NCBI GenBank assembly: GCA_025997135.1
Contig: BNUE01000037.1
Coordinates: 1 to 10,293 of the forward strand
Source of the DNA: a candidate division SR1 bacterium
GTDB lineage: Bacteria; Patescibacteriota; Gracilibacteria; Absconditabacterales; Absconditicoccaceae
Direction: 5' to 3'
Length of the DNA stretch: 10,293 nt
Both the position numbers and the translations under genes were made by a program. How positions within the stretch are numbered: the stretch's first letter is position 1; each line of letters begins with the position of its first letter. Positions 1-10,293 of this stretch are shown in pieces. The notes below the pieces were generated by a model, which worked only from the letters and a program-made list of their open reading frames with translations, was not told the origin of the DNA and made no database searches.

Positions 1-653
1 TCCATCAGTACATTTACACATTCTCAGGTGGCAGCTGGTGAAGTAATGGCTTTTGAAAATGATTTTGGCATTGTAATCCCCAGAGATGCAAGTATAGGCA
101 CGATGATCATTGTGGTTTCGTTTCACGGTACGCCTCAGATACTGTATTTACTGGCGACAATATTCGGAAAACGGTACATATCACCCGTGAAAGCCGTCGC
201 CTTGGTCGTATAGGCTAGTTCTTTTTCATCAGAATGGTAAAAAAAACTGGTTGCTGTGTAGTAAGCGATTACGAGGTCGGACAGCTTGTTATTCTGTATA
301 TCATCGACAATAGCATCAATTTCTTCATTACTAATTTTCTGTCCCAGCATTTTTTTCCTAATTGCGATCATAGATGTTGGGTTGCTTTTTGCGAAAGTTA
401 TCAGCACATTATCATTTTCCTGTATCGGGAAAGTTTCTATAAAATCGTGAGTGACACCTAGTTCATTTGCAGATACAAATTCAGAGGACAGAGCAACATC
501 TACTACATATTCTTCTCATCAGCGAAGCAGAGATATTTTATCATTTTCTCTAATATTATATTTTGCAGCTTGCTCAGTATTTAATATCACGACAAATTCA
601 CCGATATTGTGCATATCGAGTACCTTTATAGTCGCAGAGAATATTTCTTGCAT
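1..653 (-). CDS. deoA: AMP phosphorylase (thymidine phosphorylase family), 3' end cut by window
   Basis: This enzyme phosphorolyses AMP (and often CMP/UMP) to the free base and ribose 1,5-bisphosphate. In archaea and CPR bacteria the product is isomerised and fed to RuBisCO. Visible are 217 residues of an expected total near 500. Residues 1-85 match the small N-terminal domain peculiar to AMP phosphorylases (VLD at 10-12, then a glycine-containing turn). From about residue 90 the glycosyltransferase helical domain begins (IRKKMLGQKIS, then LSDLVIAYY). The phosphate-binding loop starts at Lys169 (KYSIGGVPGNETT), followed by ITSPAATGE. Glycines 45, 46, 173, 177 and 210 are encoded by TGA, including two in the phosphate loop, so the gene looks broken under the standard code. 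I chose ATG 651-653 because an upstream ATG at 693-695 lies at the -10 region of the predicted promoter and would add an unrelated hydrophobic stretch. No Shine-Dalgarno is visible. Family assignment is secure; substrate preference is inferred from the family. Confidence 0.93.
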
Positions 654-684
654 TATGTTTTTTATAGTTAATAAAATTACAACA

Positions 685-713
685 AGTATAATCATATACT
701 ACAAAAAATGCAA
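685..713 (-). promoter_or_regulatory. Predicted promoter of AMP phosphorylase
   Basis: On the minus strand, TTGCAT (708-713) and TATACT (685-690) are separated by 17 bases. Transcription would begin near 678 and give a leader of about 25 bases before the ATG at 653. The rest of the 654-751 gap is AT-rich and holds nothing else recognisable. Confidence 0.55.
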
Positions 714-751
714 GTTTTATGGGTTATGTTTTTCAAGATAATTTTTTCTCA

Positions 752-1885
752 TTAACAAACAAATGACAAAAAATTATCCTTATTGATAGTCTCAAAGTTG
801 CCTTTGGGATATAATTCTGAAAATGCTTTTGGAATTTTTGCATATTTATCCCCCCATTTAAATTCAAAAGAATATAAAGCTCCATCATACTCTTCGATAA
901 AGTCGATTTCCGACTGATTATAAGTCCTCCAAAAGTAGTTGTGTCCATAGTAACCAGAATATGCTTGCTTTTTCATTCTCTCAACAATTAAAAAATTTTC
1001 TCGTAATGCTCCTACATCATTTCTATTTTCTAGTCAATCATAATTTTCTATCACAGAATTCCTAATTCCCAAGTCATAAAAGTAAATTTTATTACTTTTG
1101 TTTAATTCTTTTCTCTTATTTGTAAAATAGGGTGGTAGGCGAAAAATAATAAAGCTTTTTTCGAGCAAATCTATATATTTTTCAGTAGTTTTCATATCCA
1201 TCCCTAAATTTCAAGCCAATTCATTGAGCGAGACCTCTGTGCCTATTTGAAAAGCTAATAATTTTAAGAGCTTGAGAATAAGCTGACTATTCTTGATCTG
1301 CTGAAATTCTAAAATATCTTTATATAAACTTGCATTTGACAACTCTCTCAGCAATCTAATTTTTTCTTCTCTCTGTGGCTGTGTTAGCACAGCTGGATAG
1401 CTTCAATAAATTAAGAGATTTTCCAGATAATCATATATTGTCTTTACGTCATAGGTCAATTTTATTTCTCCCACAGAGATAGAAAATAGATGATAAACGA
1501 ATTTTCTACCTGTCAAAGGTTCACTAGTCTGATCTAAGAGATTAAGACTAGAAGATCCTGTAATAATAATCTGTTTTGTTTTTTTGTAGGTATCAACTAA
1601 AATTTTTAGAGTATTTCATATATTGGGGATTTTTTGTGCTTCATCGATAAAAATAATTGTTTTTTCTGCTACATAAGCTTCTAGTTTATTTAAACTATTT
1701 TGACTCAAAAGCTCTCTATGTTCGTTAATATCGCCATTAAATAGCAATATTTCTTTATCTGTATAAGATTTCAAAATCTCTTCTACCAAAGTGGTTTTTC
1801 CGATTTGTCTTGCTCCCACTAACATAATAATCTTTCCAGAAAAGAAATCCTTTCTGAGTTGATCCTGTAAAATTCTTTGGTACAT
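752..1885 (-). CDS. AAA family ATPase with DUF4143 C-terminal domain
   Basis: A 377-residue protein of the common prokaryotic AAA_14/DUF4143 family. Its physiological role is not established, though members are often found in accessory or defence-like contexts. Walker A is GARQIGKTT at residues 24-32, Walker B is IIFIDEA with Asp81-Glu82, and ITGSSS downstream fits sensor 1. A winged-helix-like segment (NELAGNLGMDMKTTEKY) precedes the DUF4143 signature (SFIIFRLPPYF, KIYFYDLGIRN, NDVGALRENFLIVER). Near the C-terminus, Glu326/Asp328 (SEIDF) and Glu341-x-Lys343 (FEFKW) fit the PD-(D/E)XK-like nuclease fold. Four glycines are encoded by TGA (1616-1618, 1403-1405, 1211-1213, 1034-1036), each where relatives have glycine or a turn. 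The length is normal and the gene ends with TAA, so it is intact. The ATG at 1885 is preferred: an earlier ATG at 1924 overlaps the predicted -10 box and adds a hydrophobic tail. Codon use and UGA recoding match the neighbours, so any transfer came from a code-25 relative or is old. Confidence 0.92.
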
Positions 1886-1915
1886 GATAAAGTATGGAAG
1901 AAAATAAAACAATAA

Positions 1916-1943
1916 AATATACATAAATCACATAAAAAAGCAA
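1916..1943 (-). promoter_or_regulatory. Predicted promoter of the AAA/DUF4143 gene
   Basis: On the minus strand, TTGCTT (1938-1943) and TATATT (1916-1921) are separated by 16 bases. The expected start near 1909 gives a leader of about 23 bases. The palindrome at 1957-2005 lies just upstream of the -35 box, so it could act as an operator as well as a transcript hairpin. Confidence 0.5.
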
Positions 1944-1956
1944 ATCTTATTATGAA

Positions 1957-2005
1957 TTTTCGGAATGAATTCCGAAAATTAGTACTAATTTTCGGAATTC
2001 ATTCC
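1957..2005. repeat. Nested palindrome with a perfect 44-bp inverted repeat
   Basis: Positions 1962-1983 and 1984-2005 are exact reverse complements: 22-base arms with no spacer and the centre at AGTACT. A second perfect palindrome overlaps it at 1957-1978 (TTTTCGGAAT, two bases, ATTCCGAAAA). The element TTTTCGGAAT therefore occurs in four alternating orientations, the last one partial, allowing one long or two short hairpins. It starts 18 bases after the RNase J stop and ends 14 bases before the -35 box of the ATPase gene. No U-tract directly follows it in the RNase J direction, so it is not a standard intrinsic terminator. It could be an mRNA-end hairpin, an operator, or a small mobile repeat. 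Confidence 0.9.
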
Positions 2006-2022
2006 TATTTTTAATAGTTTTC

Positions 2023-4134
2023 CTAATCTTCATATCCCTGTTCTTCCAGTGTCATCCCGATAATAGGGTCATCACCAGCCTGTTCTCCAGAAAATGCTTC
2101 TCTATTGATATACACTCGTGTTATCATCAGCATTGGCACTCTTCAGATGATTTTTGTAATTTCTTCTCAGAGGGTCTCTTTTACACGCCTGAGGTTTTCC
2201 TTTACATCTAGCCTTTTTTTGAGGTTATTATTGTATTGAGTGCGAGCAAATTCTACGATTTGAGTATGAATTTTTTTCACTTCTGCAGAATATACAAATC
2301 AGCGAGATTCTATCTGGAGATTTCCGACTAATTCGTGGGTCTTGTTATCGATCTTGAAAATCAAGGCAACCACTCCATTCTCCGCCATAATCTTACGAGC
2401 TTTAATCACATATTCTCCTGAAAGATGTCCTTTCCCCTTTCCATCAATCACTACTGTATCGAGTTTCAGCCTTTTTTCTGATTGAAGTACGACATCATCA
2501 TACATTTCCACGATGATACCGTTTTCCAGAGGCATAATCACATTTTCATCAGGCATTCCCATATCCGTAGCCAGCTTTTTATGAGCGGTTCTATGCTTTA
2601 ATTCATCAAAGAACGGCATAAAAAATTTAGGTTTAATCAGACTTAAAAACAGTTTATGGTCTTCTGCATATCCGTGTCCTGAAGTATGGACATCGATTTC
2701 ATTATTAGTAATCAAATCCACTCCGAGAGCGAGCAAATCATTTTCCACTTTATCAATAGCGAGTTCATTTCCTGGGATGGTAGAAGAGGACATAATCACG
2801 GTATCGCCTTTCGCAAGGGAAATCTGTGGATGTTCCCCTCTAGACATTCTCGTGAGAGCGGCAAATTCTTCGCCTTGTGCACCCGTAGACAGTACGAGCA
2901 CCCTTTCATCAGGCATACTGTTCACATCGTCATCTAGCCTACGAATCATCCCTTTCGGAGCATCAATATATCCCAAGTTCTGACAAAGCTGAACATTATT
3001 CACGAGTGACCTCCCACTCAGGAACACCACTCTATTGCGTTTAATAGCACTATTCACGATTTGAATGACTCTTCCAATATTAGAGGCAAAAGTAGCGATG
3101 AAGATTCTTCCAGGAATATTTCTAATCTGTTCGTCCAAACTTTCTCAGATTTTTTTCTCAGATTTAGCTCGTCCCTGATTTTGAGCACCTAGACTATCTC
3201 AGATATAAAGCTGAACTCCTTCCGTTCCAATCCTTGCAATCTTCGCAAGGTCGGTAGGAGCGTCAATAGAGGGCGTATAATCAATTTTGAAATCTCCAGA
3301 ATCGAAAATCACTCCCTTTGGCGTATGAATAGCCAACGCCATACTTTCGGGGATATTGTGGTTTACTCTAATAAATTCAATCGTAAAACATCCTAATTTC
3401 ACAATATCTACCTCCGGGTCAATCAGCTTATATTTTACTTGATTAGCTTTAATAGGGTCATCAAATGTCTTTTTAATAATTCCCAGTGTTAGAGGGGTCG
3501 TATAAAGCGTAGGATTTCCCAGTTCTTCCAACAAATTTCTCAGGGCTCCAACGTGGTCAAGATGTCCGTGAGTAATCAAAATCCCTCTAATTTTATGCAC
3601 ATTTTGCTTCAAATAGGAAATATCGGGAATAATATAATCTGCTCCTAATTCTTCAGGAGCGGCAAATTCCATTCCTGCATCCACGATGATAATATCGTTT
3701 TTGTATTCGATAAACATACATTGTCCTACTTGCCTGATTCCCAGGAGGCTCACGACCTTAACTGGTATTTCATCTTTTTTAATCAGCTTTTTGAGGTCAG
3801 CAATTGTTTGTTTTGGCTGAGCTATCCTGTGTTTTAGAAAGTTTTCAGAAGACAGTCTGTGTGGATTTGCTGGCGTTCTAGAATAGGCTGTTCAGCGGTG
3901 TGCTCTTGGGGCCGTTGAAGCAGTTGTAGTTGAATGTGTCGTACCTGTCGGTCTACTAACTGGTCTTTGTGGAGTTCTCTGTGGAATAGACCTTGAAGGA
4001 TTGGCAGTTGTTGTTGAAACGCTTCCAGCTGGTCTTATAGATGGGGTAGGTGACGTGTGTGATGCAGGTTGTGTGTGTGAAATCTGTTTTGCTGTAGCAT
4101 TTTGTGAAATTGGTTTGTGATTTGTGTTTATCAT
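2023..4134 (-). CDS. rnj: Ribonuclease J with long N-terminal extension
   Basis: RNase J is a metallo-beta-lactamase/beta-CASP ribonuclease of the cytoplasm, with 5' exonuclease and endonuclease activity in mRNA decay and RNA maturation. The protein has 703 residues against about 550-560 for the usual core. Residues 1-124 are a disordered extension rich in Thr, Ser, Pro, Arg and His. The core begins near residue 125 (VKVVSLLGIRQVG). Metal motifs present: HGHLDH 189-194, His259 (VNHNIPES), Asp281 (SGDFK). Beta-CASP follows (ATFASN, STGAQGE, VHTSGHG with His487). Where relatives have PVHGE, this protein has PFFDE, putting Phe509 at the motif C metal-ligand histidine. The C-terminal domain (RGFVYS, REAFSGEQA, PIIGMTLEEQG) is complete and ends with TAG at 2023-2025. 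Six glycines are TGA (3892, 3199, 3145, 2299, 2167, 2143). ATG 4134 is the only ATG joined in frame to the core, but a GTG at 3753 cannot be formally excluded. Confidence 0.94.
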
Positions 4135-4190
4135 TGTAATTTAAAGAAAAAAAATTAAAAATCAGAATTTATTTGTCTGTTTAGTTTGAA
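4135..4190. promoter_or_regulatory. Divergent intergenic region between rnj and the methyltransferase gene
   Basis: These 56 bases separate the divergent ATGs of RNase J (minus) and the methyltransferase (plus), so both promoters must lie in or overlap this gap. It is almost entirely A and T. I see no -35/-10 pair that stands out on either strand and no Shine-Dalgarno before either start. Confidence 0.4.
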
Positions 4191-4739
4191 ATGCACGACT
4201 TTTTCGAGAACCTCAGAAGAAACTGTGAAATTAGGAAGATTCCTTTGATCTCTAGGGAAACTCAGGATTTCTTAGCTCAGAAAATTCAGGAGAAAAAACC
4301 AAAAAAAGTTTTAGAAATCTGAAGTGCGATTGGGTATAGTACTTGCCGAATTTCTCAGCTTATCAACCAGCGAAAAGGTAGCATTGCAAGCTTTGAAATC
4401 AGTTATCCTGCATATCTAGAAGCCACGAAAAATCTGCAAAAGATTCAGGCTAAAAATGCGGTACTTTACCCGTTTGATTTTAATGAAATCAGGTTAGAAA
4501 GCTTCTTTTCAGAAAACTTCGATTTTGTATTTATCGATGCTCGCAAGAGCCAGTACGGAAACTATTTAGAGAAAATACAAGAGATTTTGAAGCCAGAAAA
4601 TACAATTATCCTAGATGATGTCATCAAATATCAAAACAAACTATCTTTATTATACTCTTTTCTTCAGAAAAATCAAGTTTTTTATGAGATTTTTGATATG
4701 GAAGTGGGGGACTGAGTTATGCTGATAGAAAATCAATAA
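4191..4739 (+). CDS. Class I SAM-dependent O-methyltransferase, small
   Basis: A 182-residue Rossmann-fold methyltransferase of the O-methyltransferase family 3 / caffeoyl-CoA OMT-like group, which includes bacterial YrrM/TrmR-type proteins. SAM motif I is VLEIGSAIGYST at residues 40-51, and Gly44, the first glycine of that loop, is encoded by TGA (4320-4322). Glu69 (ASFEIS) is the expected ribose-binding acid. FDFVFIDARKSQY at 110-122 and IILDDV at 139-144 are the following conserved strands, with Asp116, Asp142 and Asp143 fitting the usual metal-binding acids. The C-terminal MEVGDGVML contains a second TGA glycine (4713-4715). It is slightly shorter than the usual 200-220 residues, mainly at the N-terminus. 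The ATG at 4191 is the first in frame, and the gene ends with TAA. Its substrate could be a tRNA wobble base (TrmR-like) or a small molecule; the sequence does not decide this. Confidence 0.88.
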
Positions 4740-4743
4740 TTTT

Positions 4744-4772
4744 TTGACAATAATTTTAGTTTTCTTTATAAA
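4744..4772 (+). promoter_or_regulatory. Orphan sigma70-type promoter in a convergent gap
   Basis: TTGACA (4744-4749) is a perfect -35 match. It is followed after 17 bases by TATAAA (4767-4772), five of six matches to the -10 consensus. It begins five bases after the methyltransferase stop and points into the 3' end of glycyl-tRNA synthetase on the opposite strand. No plus-strand gene follows, so it may drive a small or antisense RNA starting near 4779. AT-rich DNA can produce such matches by chance. Confidence 0.4.
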
Positions 4773-4804
4773 GGGTACAATCTCAAGTTAATCCTATTCT
4801 GCAG

Positions 4805-4825
4805 GGAAAGAGCTTGTCCCTTTCC
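4805..4825. other. Hairpin in the convergent gap
   Basis: GGAAAG (4805-4810) pairs with CTTTCC (4820-4825) around a nine-base loop. It lies between the convergent ends of the methyltransferase and glycyl-tRNA synthetase genes. No T-tract follows on either strand, so it is not a classical terminator. It would sit about 26 bases into a transcript from the orphan promoter at 4744-4772. Confidence 0.4.
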
Positions 4826-4854
4826 GAAAAATATGTCACAAAAAATGGTCTCTC

Positions 4855-6306
4855 CTATTTCATAAATTCTATATCACTGACGAGAAATCTCTGCTGAGAC
4901 ATAGTATCTCTATCTCTGAGAGTCACAGTCACAGATGCTGGATCTGCGTGATATTCTTCTACGCTCTGCTGATCAAAGGTGATGCAATATGGGGTTCATA
5001 TCTCATCTTGTCTGCGATAGCGTTTCCCGATAGCTCCATTGTCATCATATTCACAGAAATATTTTTTGGATAACTTATGAAATAGGTCTTCGCCTAGTTT
5101 TACTTGAATTTCATCTTTTTTTATCAGTGGTAAAATCGCAAATTTGACGGGTGCGATATTGGGATTAAATCTTGCGACTGTTCTGATTTCTTTTTCTCAT
5201 TTTTGATTTGTATATTCTTCTTCATCATACGCATCTATCATCACTGTAAGAATCGCCCTAGTCAAGCCTCGACTAGGTTCTACACAGTGTGGTAAATATC
5301 TCCTACCAGTCATCGGATCAGTGTATTGCATATCTTTTCCAGAAGTCTTCTGGTGCTGAGATAGGTCATAGTCCGTTCTATAGGCTATACCTTGCAACTC
5401 TCATCGTCATCGAGGAAACTCGTACTCGACATCTACAGTTCCTTTACTATAAAAAGATAATTCTGAGGCGTCATGCTCTCTAAATCTGAGCCTATCTTTT
5501 TTGATACCGATTTGTTCAGTTCGCCATTTCTCACTCATCTCTTTTCGAGATTTTAGCATTTTCAAGCCAATTTCTACATCATCTGGTATGAAATATTCTA
5601 TCTCCATTTGCTCAAATTCACGCACACGAAACATAAAATTACCAGGTGTGATCTCATTTCTAAATGATTTACCTATCTGTGCAACTCAGAAAGGAATCCT
5701 AACTCTAGTCGTATCCAGTATATTTTTGAAATTGACGAAAATCCCTTGTGCAGTCTCAGGTCTGAGATAAATATCTTTCCCCTCTCAATCGATGACTCAC
5801 TGCTGAGTCTTGAACATTAGATTGAATTTCTTGGGCTGAGTCCAGTCAGATGATCAGCATTCAGGGCATTTCACCTTAAAAACAGACAAAAAAGCTGTTT
5901 GTTGTTCAAAAGTTCGTGATTCGACAGCCAACGATTTGACTCCAAACTCTACATGAACATCAGTTAGACTTATCTGGTGTTTTTCGATATAATTTTCGAT
6001 GAGTTTGTCAGCTCTCTCTCTAGCTTTGCACTTTTTACAGTCGACTAATGGATCTGAAAAATTGGCAATATGACCACTCGCTTCTCGTACTCTAGAATTC
6101 ATCAGAATAGATGCATCCAATCCTACCATATCATCCCTTTCCTGTACGAAACACCTCCATCGTGTGTCCATAATATTTCTACGAAGCTGAACTCAGTATG
6201 GTCATAGATCTCGTGCATTTGCCAGTCCGCCATATATTTCTGAGCCTGGATATGCGAAAGCTCTCCTCTTGGCTCGTGATACAATCGTCTCCAAAGAATA
6301 AGTCAT
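4855..6306 (-). CDS. glyQS: Glycyl-tRNA synthetase, alpha2 (single-chain) type
   Basis: A class II aminoacyl-tRNA synthetase that attaches glycine to tRNA-Gly. It has 483 residues, close to the usual 440-470 of the homodimeric type (also annotated glyS). The N-terminus ([21 protein letters not shown]) is the family signature. Two CxxC pairs (Cys90/Cys93, Cys147/Cys150) suggest a zinc-binding insertion. RPETAQGIF leads into motif 2 ([12 protein letters not shown], Arg216, Glu218). The glycine-recognition region reads [16 protein letters not shown] (300-315), and motif 3 is GLTR (347-350). The anticodon-binding domain ends with [12 protein letters not shown]. Ten glycines are TGA: residues 35, 38, 151, 170, 174, 207, 300, 302, 370 and 437. 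Residues 300 and 302 are in the active-site GxGELxG segment. In code-25 bacteria this enzyme must also charge the tRNA-Gly(UCA) that reads UGA, so its own synthesis depends on its product. ATG 6306 begins exactly where homologues do, and the gene ends with TAG. I see no convincing promoter in the 6307-6415 stretch. Confidence 0.96.
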
Positions 6307-6415
6307 AAGTGTGATTTTATCTAAAAAAATTAAAAAATTCTGATCCACTTTTATCTTTTCAACACTAAAAAACAAGACAACTAAACTTTGCGACCACAAA
6401 AATACACACAAAAAT

Positions 6416-6443
6416 TTGACAAATCAAAAAAAATGATTATAAT
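6416..6443 (+). promoter_or_regulatory. Near-consensus sigma70-type promoter of the 155-residue unknown
   Basis: TTGACA (6416-6421) and TATAAT (6438-6443) both match the consensus perfectly, with a 16-base spacer. Transcription would begin near 6450, leaving an AT-only-like leader of about 33 bases before the ATG at 6483. This is the strongest promoter in the window and implies high expression of the short gene behind it. Confidence 0.8.
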
Positions 6444-6482
6444 ATAGACGTTTTATATTTTATATTTTAAACCACTATTATC

Positions 6483-6950
6483 ATGTCAATGTTCAATGAA
6501 TCTCCAAAAGTTCATGTTCCTCACAATCCAGATGGTAGCTATACTGAGAGGAGACTTAATTCTGAAACTGGTAAACGAGAAGAGTCCAAAATAACAAATG
6601 AAACCTACAAAAAACCAAAGACTCTAGAGAATATGGAACTCTCTAATTTTAAACAGGACATTACCAATAGAGTGACCGATATTTATGAAAAAAGCATAGA
6701 TATGGACCCTCTGAAGATGGAACAAAACTGAATAGAAATCGGTAGAACTACGACAACAGCTGACCCATATATCCAGTGCTGAAAATTATACATCATAGTA
6801 AGAGAAAACGGTATTTTTGCAAAAGACTGAAAGAAAGAAATACAATGTATGTATTGTAAAAATCCATCTAAAAAAGATATGTCTAAAATTTATGATATAA
6901 TGGATAAAATTGAAGAGAAATTACTAGATTTAGATTTAGCTGATATGTAA
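6483..6950 (+). CDS. Hypothetical protein, 155 residues, unknown family
   Basis: I do not recognise this protein. Under code 25 it is an open frame from ATG 6483 to TAA 6948-6950, with three TGA glycines (6729-6731, 6780-6782, 6828-6830). Under the standard code it would stop after 82 residues. The N-terminal half is hydrophilic and charged (PHNPDGSYTERRLNSETGKR) and looks like a cytoplasmic or partly disordered region. The middle contains TTTTADPYIQCGKLYIIVREN. A single cysteine there and a CxxC (QCMYCKNPSKK) lie about 28 residues apart, which could bind a metal or form a disulfide. The C-terminus is an acidic helix-like stretch. There is no signal peptide or membrane segment. A consensus promoter and an intrinsic terminator bracket it, so it is a monocistronic unit. 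A second ATG two codons downstream is an equally possible start. The reading frame is well supported, the function is unknown. Confidence 0.78.
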
Positions 6951-6962
6951 TAATTATTAATT

Positions 6963-7002
6963 AAAAAAAACCGACCGTGAATTATTCTTGGTTGGTTTTT
7001 TT
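6963..7002. terminator. Bidirectional intrinsic terminator
   Basis: The stem is ACCGACC (to 6976) with GGTTGGT (from 6990), extended by an A-run at 6963-6970 and a T-run at 6996-7002, with one G-T wobble pair. It lies 12 bases after the stop of the plus-strand unknown gene and 6 bases beyond the rpsE stop on the minus strand. With T-tracts on both strands it can end both convergent transcripts. Confidence 0.88.
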
Positions 7003-7008
7003 ATAAAA

Positions 7009-7830
7009 CTATTCTTCAGTATTTTCTTCTTTTTTTACAGTCTTCTTAGCTGGAGCTTTCTTCACAGTTTTTGGAGCAAATTCTGGCTTTGTTTCAGTTT
7101 CTTCTTCTTTTTTAGCTTCAGTTTTTTCTTCACTAGCACCAGTAGCCACCTTTGGAGTCCTCAGTCCCTCAAAATACTCTGCATGCTTGTAAGAAGCCAA
7201 AGCTTTGATAGTTGCGAGAGCATTATTTAATTTATTATTTGATCCGATCATTTTAGACAACATATTTGAGTATCCAGCCAATTCTAGAACTGAACGAATT
7301 GAAGAGCCAGCTTTAAGTCCAGTACCCTCAGATGCAGGCAACAGACGAACTATCGCTGCTTTATACTTTAACTCCAAGATATATGGTACAGTATCACCTT
7401 TTGCGATAGGCACCTGAAACATAGTTTTATACGCTTCATTTGTAGCTTTAGCCACTGCTCCTGCCACATCATTACCTTTTGCGACACCTAGTCATATTTT
7501 ACCTTTTTTATTTCCGACCAAAACTGTAGCTCTAAAAGACATTCTCCTACCTCCAGTCGTAACCCTAGTCACCCTGCGGACTTCGAGCAAAAGTTCGTCA
7601 AACTCTTTTTTTGGTTTGTCTCTCTTGTCTCCTCTATCTCTGCGATCTCCACGACCTCATCTATCATTTCATCATTTCCCTCATCTCGAAAATCTCTTTT
7701 CCCCTCATTGATCAGGAGATTGAGCTTCAGATACTGGTGCAGTAGTCGTTTCTGACGAAGTTTCAACTGGTGTTTCTACAGATGTAGCTTCAGTAGTTTC
7801 TTCTGTTGTAATGTTTTCTTCTGGTGTCAT
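7009..7830 (-). CDS. rpsE: 30S ribosomal protein S5 with charged N- and C-terminal extensions
   Basis: S5 is a small-subunit protein at the mRNA entry site, involved in decoding accuracy. The protein has 273 residues against about 165 in E. coli. The core spans about residues 77-215: [35 protein letters not shown], then [21 protein letters not shown] and [17 protein letters not shown], all clear S5 signatures. Residues 1-45 are acidic and Thr-rich. Residues 43-76 are basic and Gly/Arg-rich ([16 protein letters not shown]). The tail from about 231 alternates Glu and Lys and ends with [11 protein letters not shown] plus an acidic end. Six TGA glycines occur (7705, 7681, 7672, 7669, 7657, 7492), five of them in the Gly/Arg tract, including a tandem TGA-TGA. 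The start ATG 7828-7830 follows a good promoter, and the stop is TAG. It is a single-gene unit, not flanked by rplR or other spc-operon genes as in most bacteria. Confidence 0.95.
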
Positions 7831-7857
7831 ACCAAGACAAAAAATAATATAAATCTG

Positions 7858-7873
7858 AATTCTAATAAGAATT
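7858..7873 (-). other. Short hairpin at the 5' end of the predicted rpsE leader
   Basis: On the minus strand AATTCT and AGAATT form a perfect 6-bp stem with a 4-base loop. The predicted start of transcription is near 7876, so the stem would sit almost at the 5' end of the mRNA and might protect it from 5' decay. The stem is pure AT except for two G-C pairs, so chance occurrence is plausible. Confidence 0.25.
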
Positions 7874-7882
7874 GTATTTCGC

Positions 7883-7910
7883 ATAATATTGATTTACTCT
7901 TAATTTTCAA
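7883..7910 (-). promoter_or_regulatory. Predicted rpsE promoter
   Basis: On the minus strand, TTGAAA (7905-7910) and TATTAT (7883-7888) are separated by 16 bases. This predicts a start near 7876 and a leader of about 46 bases. It lies in the 114-base gap after the upstream 722-residue gene, showing that rpsE is probably transcribed on its own. Confidence 0.6.
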
Positions 7911-7944
7911 GGGGAAATAGTTGATTATTTACTCTCATCTAGTT

Positions 7945-10113
7945 TTATCCAGGTATCAAGTACCTTTTATTATAATAAGTGATGTGTTTTCGTGTTCATC
8001 TGAGCCAAAGGAGGTCTTCCATACTAAATTCAAAATTCTTTTTTTTGCTGAAATTTTGCCAATTTTTTCGTAAAAGATCTAGAAAATCTTTATTATCATC
8101 AATTCCGCAAAGGACATCGAAAGCTGGACCAAATTCATCGATAAGGCTCATAATTATAGTTTGTAGCTCGGGGATCAGCTCAGGCTCTATCCTTATAATC
8201 TCTCATAAAAAAGTGCTCGACAACAGATAAAATTCGCTCAGCTTTTTTTCTTTTTTATTCTGAGTGATAAAGTAGTGATAAGATAGCATAAAACCTGGCA
8301 AAAGCTCTTTTATCTCTGCCAAAATCTGAAGGATAACTGTGTCACTATATCTATTTTGATACTTCTGCAGCGGAAATCTGGACATAAAATTTCTCATAAT
8401 TCGCCAATCAATAGAGTACATAGAGTCTTTTAGACGAGTCAGATCATCATCTGTGATGAATTTTGGCAGTCGAGAAATATCTACATTTAGCCAAAAAGGA
8501 GCAAAAAAATCTGATACAAACTGGTCTTTTGGCTTTTTTATCATCGTAGAAATATCCTTCCCAAATTTAGCCTGAAACCATTTGAGAATTGATGGAGTTT
8601 TGAGGTGCAATTTACCAACTTGAGGGTTTATATCTGAAAATAGTACGATTACAGCTTCCTGAAAATATGACTTTTTGAGGAAAGGCGAAATTGGAATTTG
8701 TGGAATTTTTTGTCCCAGTGAAATATAAAATTTTTCCTTACCTTTTCTGATAGCTTTATGTGTATAGCTATAAAAATATGTATTTCGAGAGTAGAAAAAC
8801 TGTAAACGTGAGTAAAAATTAGCATCTGAAATCGAGTTTTTTTCGTTTAATTTCAGAGCCTCTATCTGTTCAATTAGTCCAGATTTAAAAAATCTAAGAT
8901 AAAAAGTATCGGCTTTATCTATGGTAAATCATCCAGTGTAGGTGATATAAAAATTTAAGAGTTGTTCCATTATCATCGATTCTTTTTTAATTCGCTGAGG
9001 GATCTTGAGGTCGTTAAAGCTAGCTGATGAAGATGATGTCTTAATCTCAGATAAAGTTTCATGAAACTCTTCTAATTCCTCCTCTTGTTCGTCATCTACT
9101 TTTTTTTGGTAGGTTATGTCTATAAAATCTCTAATTCCATCGAAATATCACTTTTTAAAAATCTGAGGATCCATCAAATAATCGAGTAAACGTTCGACAG
9201 TTGTATCGTCTTTGGTACTATTTGTCAAGTGTTTTTTGACTATTTTTTTGTCATACATTTGATTAACAATTGTAGATACTAGGTCATGAGGGTCATTATT
9301 GGCGAAAAAATACTTAATCTGAATATCTGCAGGTGCAATATCGAAAAAGATGGCTTCTTCTGGCTGAGAGAGTGAAGTCTTGAATTTCGTCTGAGAATAA
9401 GATGCCAAAAATAATTTCTGAAGTGATGAACTAGAATCTCCAAATAGTCGCTTTTCAAATGAGGATTCTTCAGATTGTGACTCGAAATATTTATTTAAAC
9501 GGCGATAATAATTAAACATTAAGAAAAAAATATCCAATTCCTTGAGAAGTCTGATTTTTAGCTCTCTGAACTGTTTTGCAGAAGTTTTATGATTTAACTG
9601 TACAGTTACTAGCTCAAAAAACGAGAAAAATAAGTCGACAAACCAGTTGAAATCTCATTCTTTTGACAGCTGTGGGAAAACCTTAATTCTGCTGGCAAAT
9701 ATAAAACTAATCAAATAAAAACTATACAAACAGTCTATAAAAAGCTGATCTTCATCTTGATTGAAATGCTCCTCTAGAATAAGTGCTATCGCAAAAACTA
9801 GTGAATTAGCTGTATTAGCTATGTTATAAAATTTATAGCCATTGAAATTTGCGGCAGCTAAATATCAGTAGTAAGTATCTATAGTTTTAGGCGTGATGCG
9901 TTTCTCTTCGTTCCCTAATCATATTTTTATATCGAAAACATTTATCCCTGTATCGAACATATTGAGTTTATAGTTCTCAGTCATCCTCTTATGAATGATC
10001 GAAAAAAACTCTCTAGCTGCTATAAAAGAGATAAACATAGACGCAGGGTTGATGTCGTGTTCTCCTATGTGATCTGGGAAATAAGACAGAAGGATTCTTT
10101 TGTACAATTGCAT
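7945..10113 (-). CDS. Hypothetical protein, 722 residues, unknown family
   Basis: I do not recognise this protein. It is the largest gene in the window: ATG 10111-10113 to TAA 7945-7947, with no TAA or TAG over 722 codons. Seven TGA glycines occur at 9919, 9865, 9655, 9148, 8929, 8203 and 7996. The composition is rich in Phe, Tyr, Lys, Ile and Leu. Residues 1-330 and 370-722 look like two helical, globular halves joined by an acidic and Ser-rich linker at about 330-365 (EQEEELEEF, then SSSSAS). Hydrophobic stretches such as FVDLFFSFFELV are too short and interrupted to call membrane spans with confidence, and there is no signal peptide. No Walker, nuclease, protease or methyltransferase motif is apparent. 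A promoter directly before the start predicts an almost leaderless transcript. It may be a lineage-restricted scaffold or regulatory protein, but that is speculation. Confidence 0.85.
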
Positions 10114-10123
10114 AATGCGAATT

Positions 10124-10151
10124 ATGATACGATTTTTTTTATGCTTTTCAA
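10124..10151 (-). promoter_or_regulatory. Predicted promoter of the 722-residue unknown, near-leaderless
   Basis: On the minus strand, TTGAAA (10146-10151) and TATCAT (10124-10129) are separated by 16 bases. Transcription would start near 10117, only about four bases before the ATG at 10113. This implies a leaderless or nearly leaderless mRNA, in keeping with the absent Shine-Dalgarno. Confidence 0.55.
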
Positions 10152-10152
10152 G

Positions 10153-10161
10153 TGATATAAT
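10153..10161 (+). promoter_or_regulatory. Extended -10 promoter on the plus strand
   Basis: TGATATAAT is a perfect extended -10 element (TG, one base, TATAAT), which can work without a -35 box. It abuts the -35 box of the minus-strand promoter, giving back-to-back promoters. Transcription would begin near 10168. Confidence 0.45.
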
Positions 10162-10167
10162 TTTCGC

Positions 10168-10293
10168 AGACTAATTTTCAAGCAAAATGCACCACAGAGG
10201 CAAACTCAGTAGATAAGAACTAGATTTCTCAATTTTGATACTTTTTAAACAAGTTTTCAGCACTTTCATAACCTAGAATTTTTCTAGGTTTTT
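10168..10293 (+). ncRNA. Candidate small RNA or attenuated leader
   Basis: Between a perfect extended -10 box and a strong hairpin terminator lies about 125 bases of plus-strand sequence without a convincing gene. It matches no RNA family I know (not tRNA, SRP RNA, tmRNA or RNase P). It contains one very short frame, ATG 10187 to TAA 10216, of nine residues (MHHRGKLSR). It could be a small RNA, or the leader of a plus-strand gene beyond the window with the hairpin acting as attenuator. This is inferred only from the bracketing signals. Confidence 0.3.
10270..10293 (+). terminator. Intrinsic terminator on the plus strand, T-tract cut by window end
   Basis: AACCTAGAA (10270-10278) and TTCTAGGTT (10282-10290) form a perfect 9-bp stem with a 3-base loop, followed by Ts to the end of the window. 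No plus-strand coding sequence precedes it; it ends either a small RNA or an attenuated leader. On the minus strand no T-tract follows the stem. Confidence 0.65.

Follow-up and report, generated by a model that had tools for sequence, protein, structure and literature searches.

The genetic code of the source genome

The genome that carries the window (the whole stretch of 10,293 nucleotides analysed here), a member of the Absconditabacteria, almost certainly uses a doubly altered genetic code, in which UGA would stand for glycine and CGA and CGG for tryptophan. We computed codon columns, tRNA genes with their identity elements, one release factor, and one TrpRS. In the scheme that we propose, RF2 would be gone and RF1 would end proteins at UAA and UAG, while UGA would be read by a tRNA-Gly(UCA) that most likely receives its glycine from the GlyRS of the window. 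CGA and CGG would be decoded by two further tRNAs, with anticodons UCG and CCG, for which the only TrpRS detected is the most likely charging enzyme. Arginine would retain AGA and AGG together with CGU and CGC, the latter two being read by tRNA-Arg(GCG). We infer the charging of these tRNAs, their decoding in the cell, and the unambiguity of that decoding from sequence.

Source genome and comparisons

The source genome (hereafter G000) is a draft of 87 contigs, 93.8% complete and with 3% contamination, whose GC content is low (0.35 in the window and in the genome sample). It belongs to the Absconditabacteria (candidate division SR1), as it shares its family label with genome G165. The GlyRS stretch of G165 recurs without a mismatch within JAPLUU010000015.1 (candidate division SR1 bacterium), an organism placed by the NCBI taxonomy in the phylum Candidatus Absconditibacteriota. 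We compared G000 with three genomes of the same genus (G140, G090, and G151), with other members of its family (f1), and with two further families, f14 and f22, which we class as Gracilibacteria-like on the strength of in-frame UGA in their GlyRS.

GlyRS columns were taken from the best 80 of 584 homologous loci, in named genomes. GlyRS codons were compared in 28 of the 30 f1 genomes with a GlyRS match, in 11 of 20 for f14, and in 8 of 11 for f22, and IleS codons in 30 f1 loci, out of 49 genomes with a match. Within the genus, a position was counted as conserved when 5 or more of its 10 neighbours were identical. The comparison with E. coli covers 10,285 aligned codons of G000, overlapping antisense frames having been removed. 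Plain ORF codon counts include shadow frames and were left out of the results.

Genes of the window and UGA as glycine

The window holds eight genes, given here with their longest code-25 frames (UGA and CGA positions are the low coordinate of the codon):

3..695, minus strand: AMP phosphorylase, N-terminal part of 231 codons, cut by the window edge (TIGR03327, E 4.6e-47, profile 3-210 of 500); 5 UGA (519, 516, 135, 123, 24), no CGA
752..1933, minus strand: AAA ATPase with DUF4143 (PF13635, PF13173); 5 UGA (1928 probably before the start), 1 CGA (1001), stop TAA
2023..4134, minus strand: RNase J (TIGR00649 above cut-off); 6 UGA, 2 CGA (3169, 2116), stop TAG
4191..4739, plus strand: O-methyltransferase (PF01596); 2 UGA (4320, 4713), 2 CGA (4347, 4371), stop TAA
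4855..6306, minus strand: glycyl-tRNA synthetase, GlyRS (NF003211 and TIGR00389 above cut-off); 10 UGA, 10 CGA, stop TAG
6483..6950, plus strand: orf6, 155 aa, no family; 3 UGA, 1 CGA, stop TAA
7009..7884, minus strand: ribosomal protein uS5 (PF00333, PF03719); 6 UGA, a single CGA (7879, codon 2, probably before the start), stop TAG
7945..10113, minus strand: orf8, 722 aa, conserved in the family, no named family; 7 UGA, 7 CGA, 6 UGG, stop TAA

Six of the eight match a known family, the AMP phosphorylase as a fragment. No match to orf6 was found in Pfam or NCBIfam; orf8 has none in NCBIfam and none above cut-off in Pfam, and it has relatives in 43 of 49 f1 genomes. Read from a TTG start, the GlyRS frame extends to 6411.

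The first-pass annotation had described in-frame UGA in eight genes that end in TAA or TAG only. This is what we find, with 44 in-frame TGA codons in the window and seven visible gene ends comprising four TAA and three TAG, the eighth gene running off the window. The earlier count was 43; the difference is explained by the TGA at 1928, the second codon of the DUF4143 frame, whose called start probably lies too far upstream. Translation with table 11 breaks the genes up, the longest remaining frame having 279 aa within RNase J, so that the fragmentation previously expected from any standard-code annotation is real.

To read UGA, we turned to homologous columns, in particular those of GlyRS, where glycine ranks first in 9 of the 10 UGA columns among the best 80 of 584 homologues. 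It occurs in 79 of 80 at residues 35, 38, 207, and 437 and in 76 at residue 300. The site at residue 437 had been cited as an example by the first-pass annotation:

4996..4998, minus strand: UGA at GlyRS residue 437, glycine in 79 of 80 homologues, the remaining one having an in-frame stop codon

The other examples given there fared similarly. Glycine stands in all three printed alignments at 4320 of the methyltransferase, and the UGA codons at 135 and 123 of AMP phosphorylase correspond to two glycines of SIGGVPGN in the alignment with 4ga5. At 3145 of RNase J it is found in two of three printed alignments, the third having alanine. The broader statement that UGA falls on conserved glycines has exceptions: GlyRS residue 174 is one (D 27, E 20, G 17), and in orf8 glycine is found in none of 11 relatives at residues 153 and 637 and in 5 of 11 at residue 83. 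Over the codons aligned with E. coli, UGA faces glycine in 180 of 304 cases, alanine in 27, and tryptophan in none. UGA is thus glycine in G000, in agreement with the earlier remark that this meaning is known in Absconditabacteria and Gracilibacteria, which also accords with PMC8629427.

CGA and CGG at tryptophan positions

The window contains 24 CGA codons, including the one of uS5 that probably precedes the true start. Two of those in GlyRS lie at invariant positions:

6160..6162, minus strand: CGA at GlyRS residue 49, tryptophan in 80 of 80 homologues
6085..6087, minus strand: CGA at GlyRS residue 74, tryptophan in 80 of 80 homologues

Tryptophan also occurs in 63 of up to 80 homologues at residue 32, in 50 at residue 254, and in 45 at residue 301. 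At the other CGA columns of GlyRS the commonest residue is leucine (11, 131, 262) or phenylalanine (299, 346). Arginine is commonest at none of the ten, again among the best 80 of 584 homologues. When CGA is read as tryptophan, the best PDB match of GlyRS rises from 426.9 to 458.6 bits.

IleS gives the same picture. In its N-terminal part in G000, CGA stands at an E. coli tryptophan in 5 of 9 cases and CGG in 3 of 3, and neither stands at an E. coli arginine. Across the 30 f1 loci, the 15 columns with tryptophan in E. coli hold 164 UGG, 98 CGA, and 21 CGG, and the six columns with arginine in both E. coli and G000 hold 128 AGA, 12 AGG, 10 CGU, 2 CGC, and no CGA or CGG. For GlyRS, CGA or CGG occupies none of 392 arginine cells and 38 of 168 tryptophan cells in the 28 f1 genomes, three of the six tryptophan columns having been chosen since G000 has CGA there. 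The picture is reversed in the eight f22 genomes (21 of 112 arginine cells, 0 of 48 tryptophan cells), and in f14 the two codons appear in neither (0 of 154 and 0 of 66).

Within the genus, conserved CGA codons of G000 are matched by UGG, CGA, or CGG at 82 of 99 positions in G140, 58 of 64 in G090, and 31 of 36 in G151, and by arginine at 1, 0, and 0 of these, respectively. For CGG the corresponding counts are 7 of 9, 4 of 5, and 4 of 4, or 15 of 18 in total, and 4 of the 10 CGG codons of G000 aligned with E. coli face tryptophan. As controls, CGU is matched by arginine in G140 at 83 of 102 positions and CGC at 42 of 52. From these alignments we read both CGA and CGG as tryptophan codons in G000. 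The window has no CGG, so that the meaning of this codon is judged from a small number of sites outside it.

The genome had been described as a code-25 genome. This stands for UGA; it does not for CGA and CGG, whose columns and tRNA identity elements (see below) point to tryptophan. The advice to re-call the genes with table 25 is consequently one we would not follow: because CGA and CGG are tryptophan, that table mistranslates the window, putting arginine at its CGA codons, the invariant tryptophan positions of GlyRS among them.

Release factors, tRNAs, and TrpRS

A single release factor candidate was found in G000, RF1, which scores above its cut-off. No RF2-level match was found in this 93.8% complete genome, which bears out the suggestion that RF2 might be lost. 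The RF2 cut-off is reached by none of 64 genomes (33 of f1, 20 of f14, and 11 of f22), compared with 10 of 14 controls; 61 of the 64 have a weaker match.

The covariance model identified 39 tRNA genes in G000, all of which were named by ARAGORN. A tRNA-Gly(UCA), the other feature that had been proposed as a check, is indeed among them (G000:C15:19582-19655). It is 74 bases long, matches the ordinary tRNA family with 60.8 bits, and has the glycine identity elements G1:C72, C2:G71, G3:C70, and U73. These four elements are the criteria for tRNA-Gly(UCA) in PMC8629427. Of 20 family genomes searched, G000 among them, 19 have a match to its sequence, which in 14 extends across all 74 bases; the exception, G130, is 88% complete. 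The UCA tRNAs of G140, G090, and G151 are 98-100% identical to that of G000 in the aligned part, which for G151 covers 54 of 74 bases.

ARAGORN names tRNA(CCG) and tRNA(UCG) as arginine tRNAs, by anticodon. After re-registering the acceptor stem, both have G73, with 1:72 pairs A:U and G:U, and lack A20, position 20 being judged by eye from the D-loop. They resemble tRNA-Trp(CCA); tRNA-Arg(GCG), (UCU), and (CCU) instead have A20 and A73. Among the 39 tRNA genes none has the anticodon ACG, and CGA should accordingly not be decoded through inosine. TrpRS has a single match in G000 (C51:4286-5260). We considered a second TrpRS dedicated to the CGA and CGG tRNAs and discarded the idea, given this single match; two matches above cut-off occur only in G144 among 49 genomes of the family.

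Alternative readings

The simplest alternative is that UGA alone has changed, as in table 25, and that CGA and CGG keep arginine, which is after all their standard meaning. Some observations lean that way: E. coli has arginine at 3 of 42 CGA and 1 of 10 CGG codons of G000, the CGA codons at residues 374 and 443 of orf8 lie in arginine- or lysine-rich columns (one R 6/S 4, the other K 10/11), tryptophan is commonest at only 2 of the 7 CGA columns of orf8 among 11 relatives, and the sister family f22 has the two codons in arginine cells of GlyRS. Yet arginine is commonest at no CGA column of GlyRS, it is found at one conserved CGA position in G140 and at none in G090 or G151, and tRNA(UCG) and tRNA(CCG) lack the elements shared by the other arginine tRNAs, which makes this reading very unlikely. 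The same minority of CGA codons at arginine or lysine columns might instead reflect ambiguity, CGA and CGG being mostly tryptophan and sometimes arginine, or U34 wobble of tRNA-Gly(UCA) letting UGA and UGG be partly exchanged, a potential ambiguity raised in PMC8629427. We regard this as improbable, though less so than an unchanged meaning of CGA and CGG, for within the genus conserved CGA positions show arginine no more often than noise would give and, once antisense frames are removed, UGA stands at E. coli tryptophan columns 0 times in G000, 1 in G140, 1 in G090, and 0 in G151.

A tryptophan (code 4) or selenocysteine meaning of UGA can practically be dismissed. Nothing favours it other than the label tRNA-SeC given by ARAGORN to tRNA(UCA), and this tRNA has an ordinary length, an ordinary family match, and glycine elements. 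The UGA columns hold glycine, with no UGA of G000 at an E. coli tryptophan, and at 37-43% of the glycine-type codons in aligned stretches UGA is far too frequent for selenocysteine. An additional tryptophan meaning of UGA in relatives was also considered, as five UGA codons of G140 lay at E. coli tryptophans; several came from query frames that by eye seemed antisense, and one was left.

Codon usage and stage of reassignment

To assess how far the change of CGA and CGG has gone, we counted tryptophan codons in aligned stretches. The counts of CGA, CGG, and UGG in G000 are 153, 19, and 149 over 24,561 codons aligned to G140 (54% reassigned), 84, 12, and 78 over 14,468 aligned to G090 (55%), 55, 5, and 58 over 11,262 aligned to G151 (51%), and 42, 10, and 56 over those aligned to E. 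coli (48%). These four sets overlap and are samples, distinct from the Pfam measure of PMC8629427. Across 40 genomes of the family, sampled at 28 GlyRS and 30 IleS loci (both genes in 18 genomes), CGA and CGG together make up 0-86% of the tryptophan codons; they are the majority in 14 genomes and absent in 2. The arginine-to-tryptophan change has thus probably passed its early stage in the family, CGA and CGG having recovered in many species to a frequency close to or above that of UGG. Two reassignments would then run side by side, ranging from first steps to completed capture.

The use of UGA is just as variable. Its share of glycine codons in the same two genes ranges from 2% to 62% across the 40 family genomes. 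Among glycine-type codons it is 0.37-0.43 in G000, 0.06-0.10 in G140, 0.10-0.13 in G090, and 0.61-0.63 in G151, a spread of about six-fold in one genus whose UCA tRNAs are nearly identical in their aligned parts. If CGA and CGG offered an escape from UGG being misread by tRNA-Gly(UCA), their use should rise with that of UGA. The correlation in the 40 genomes, each with few codons and uncorrected for relatedness, is slightly negative (Spearman -0.29, p 0.065), and the escape idea is unsupported.

The practical consequences differ between tables. Annotation with table 11 breaks the genes of such genomes; that with table 25 silently writes arginine at tryptophan, at the 24 CGA codons of the window and at about half of the sampled tryptophan codons. 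The wide spread in the use of UGA and of CGA and CGG within one family is also a natural series for tests of codon capture and refilling.

Organization of ileS

IleS has inserted phosphohydrolase domains in the family: a NUDIX domain in G000 (PF00293, E 1.8e-13; L127:12296-14536) and a histidine phosphatase (PF00300) in G084 (L273) and G204 (L335). In G140 (L333) and G090 (L334), a single frame of some 1,390 codons spans HYGH to KMSKS. In G000 (L274, G000:C4:14000-17500) and G204 (L335, G204:C23:10100-15500), the ileS frame shares its end, after CWFESGAMPFGQEHY. The KMSKS half in G000, or its start in G204, where it is cut by the end of the sequence, lies further on in another frame. Between the parts, G000 has a frame for a UMPH-1 nucleotidase (PF05822, E 1.2e-60) and G204 has other frames. 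These two genes may reflect a synthetase made in two pieces, a disrupted gene, or a misassembly. An intron in ileS of relatives was considered and rejected, as five loci gave no Rfam match to E 0.01 and have inserted protein domains instead.

Comparison with known genetic codes

Shulgina and Eddy predicted in 2021 that Absconditabacteria read UGA as glycine and both CGA and CGG as tryptophan (PMC8629427), and the same code is repeated for the Absconditabacterales in PMC13092985. As the code was already predicted for the candidate division SR1 group, the window is a further example of it and no new code. PMC8629427 also states that such decoding can be established by experiment only. All three codon meanings are shared by G000. 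So are the features described in PMC8629427: a tRNA(UCA) with glycine elements, tRNA(UCG) and tRNA(CCG) with G73 and no A20, a tRNA-Arg(GCG) with no ACG anticodon, and a low GC content. The difference lies in frequency. In PMC8629427, CGA is below 37 per 10,000 in all of its Absconditabacteria, the changes of CGA and CGG resemble earlier stages, and one genome has CGA and CGG approaching UGG. In contrast, CGA in G000 amounts to 40.8 (aligned to E. coli) to 62.3 (aligned to G140) per 10,000, although the measures differ, Pfam columns in one case and alignments in the other. What our analysis may add to the 2021 prediction is a quantitative extension only, the share of CGA and CGG.

Among the NCBI tables, table 25 (the SR1 and Gracilibacteria code) has in common with G000 UGA as glycine and the stops UAA and UAG, but leaves CGA and CGG as arginine, where G000 is predicted to have tryptophan. 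Table 4, with UGA as tryptophan, is not that of G000, which has no UGA at E. coli tryptophan columns. Families f14 and f22 are like G000 in having no RF2-level match in 20 and 11 genomes, respectively, and in using UGA in GlyRS, in 11 of 11 f14 and 4 of 8 f22 genomes examined. The other four f22 GlyRS genes are without UGA though none of the 11 f22 genomes reaches the RF2 level; UGA may be a rare glycine codon there. The families part from G000 at CGA and CGG, which f22 places at arginine columns and never at tryptophan, and which f14 places at neither.
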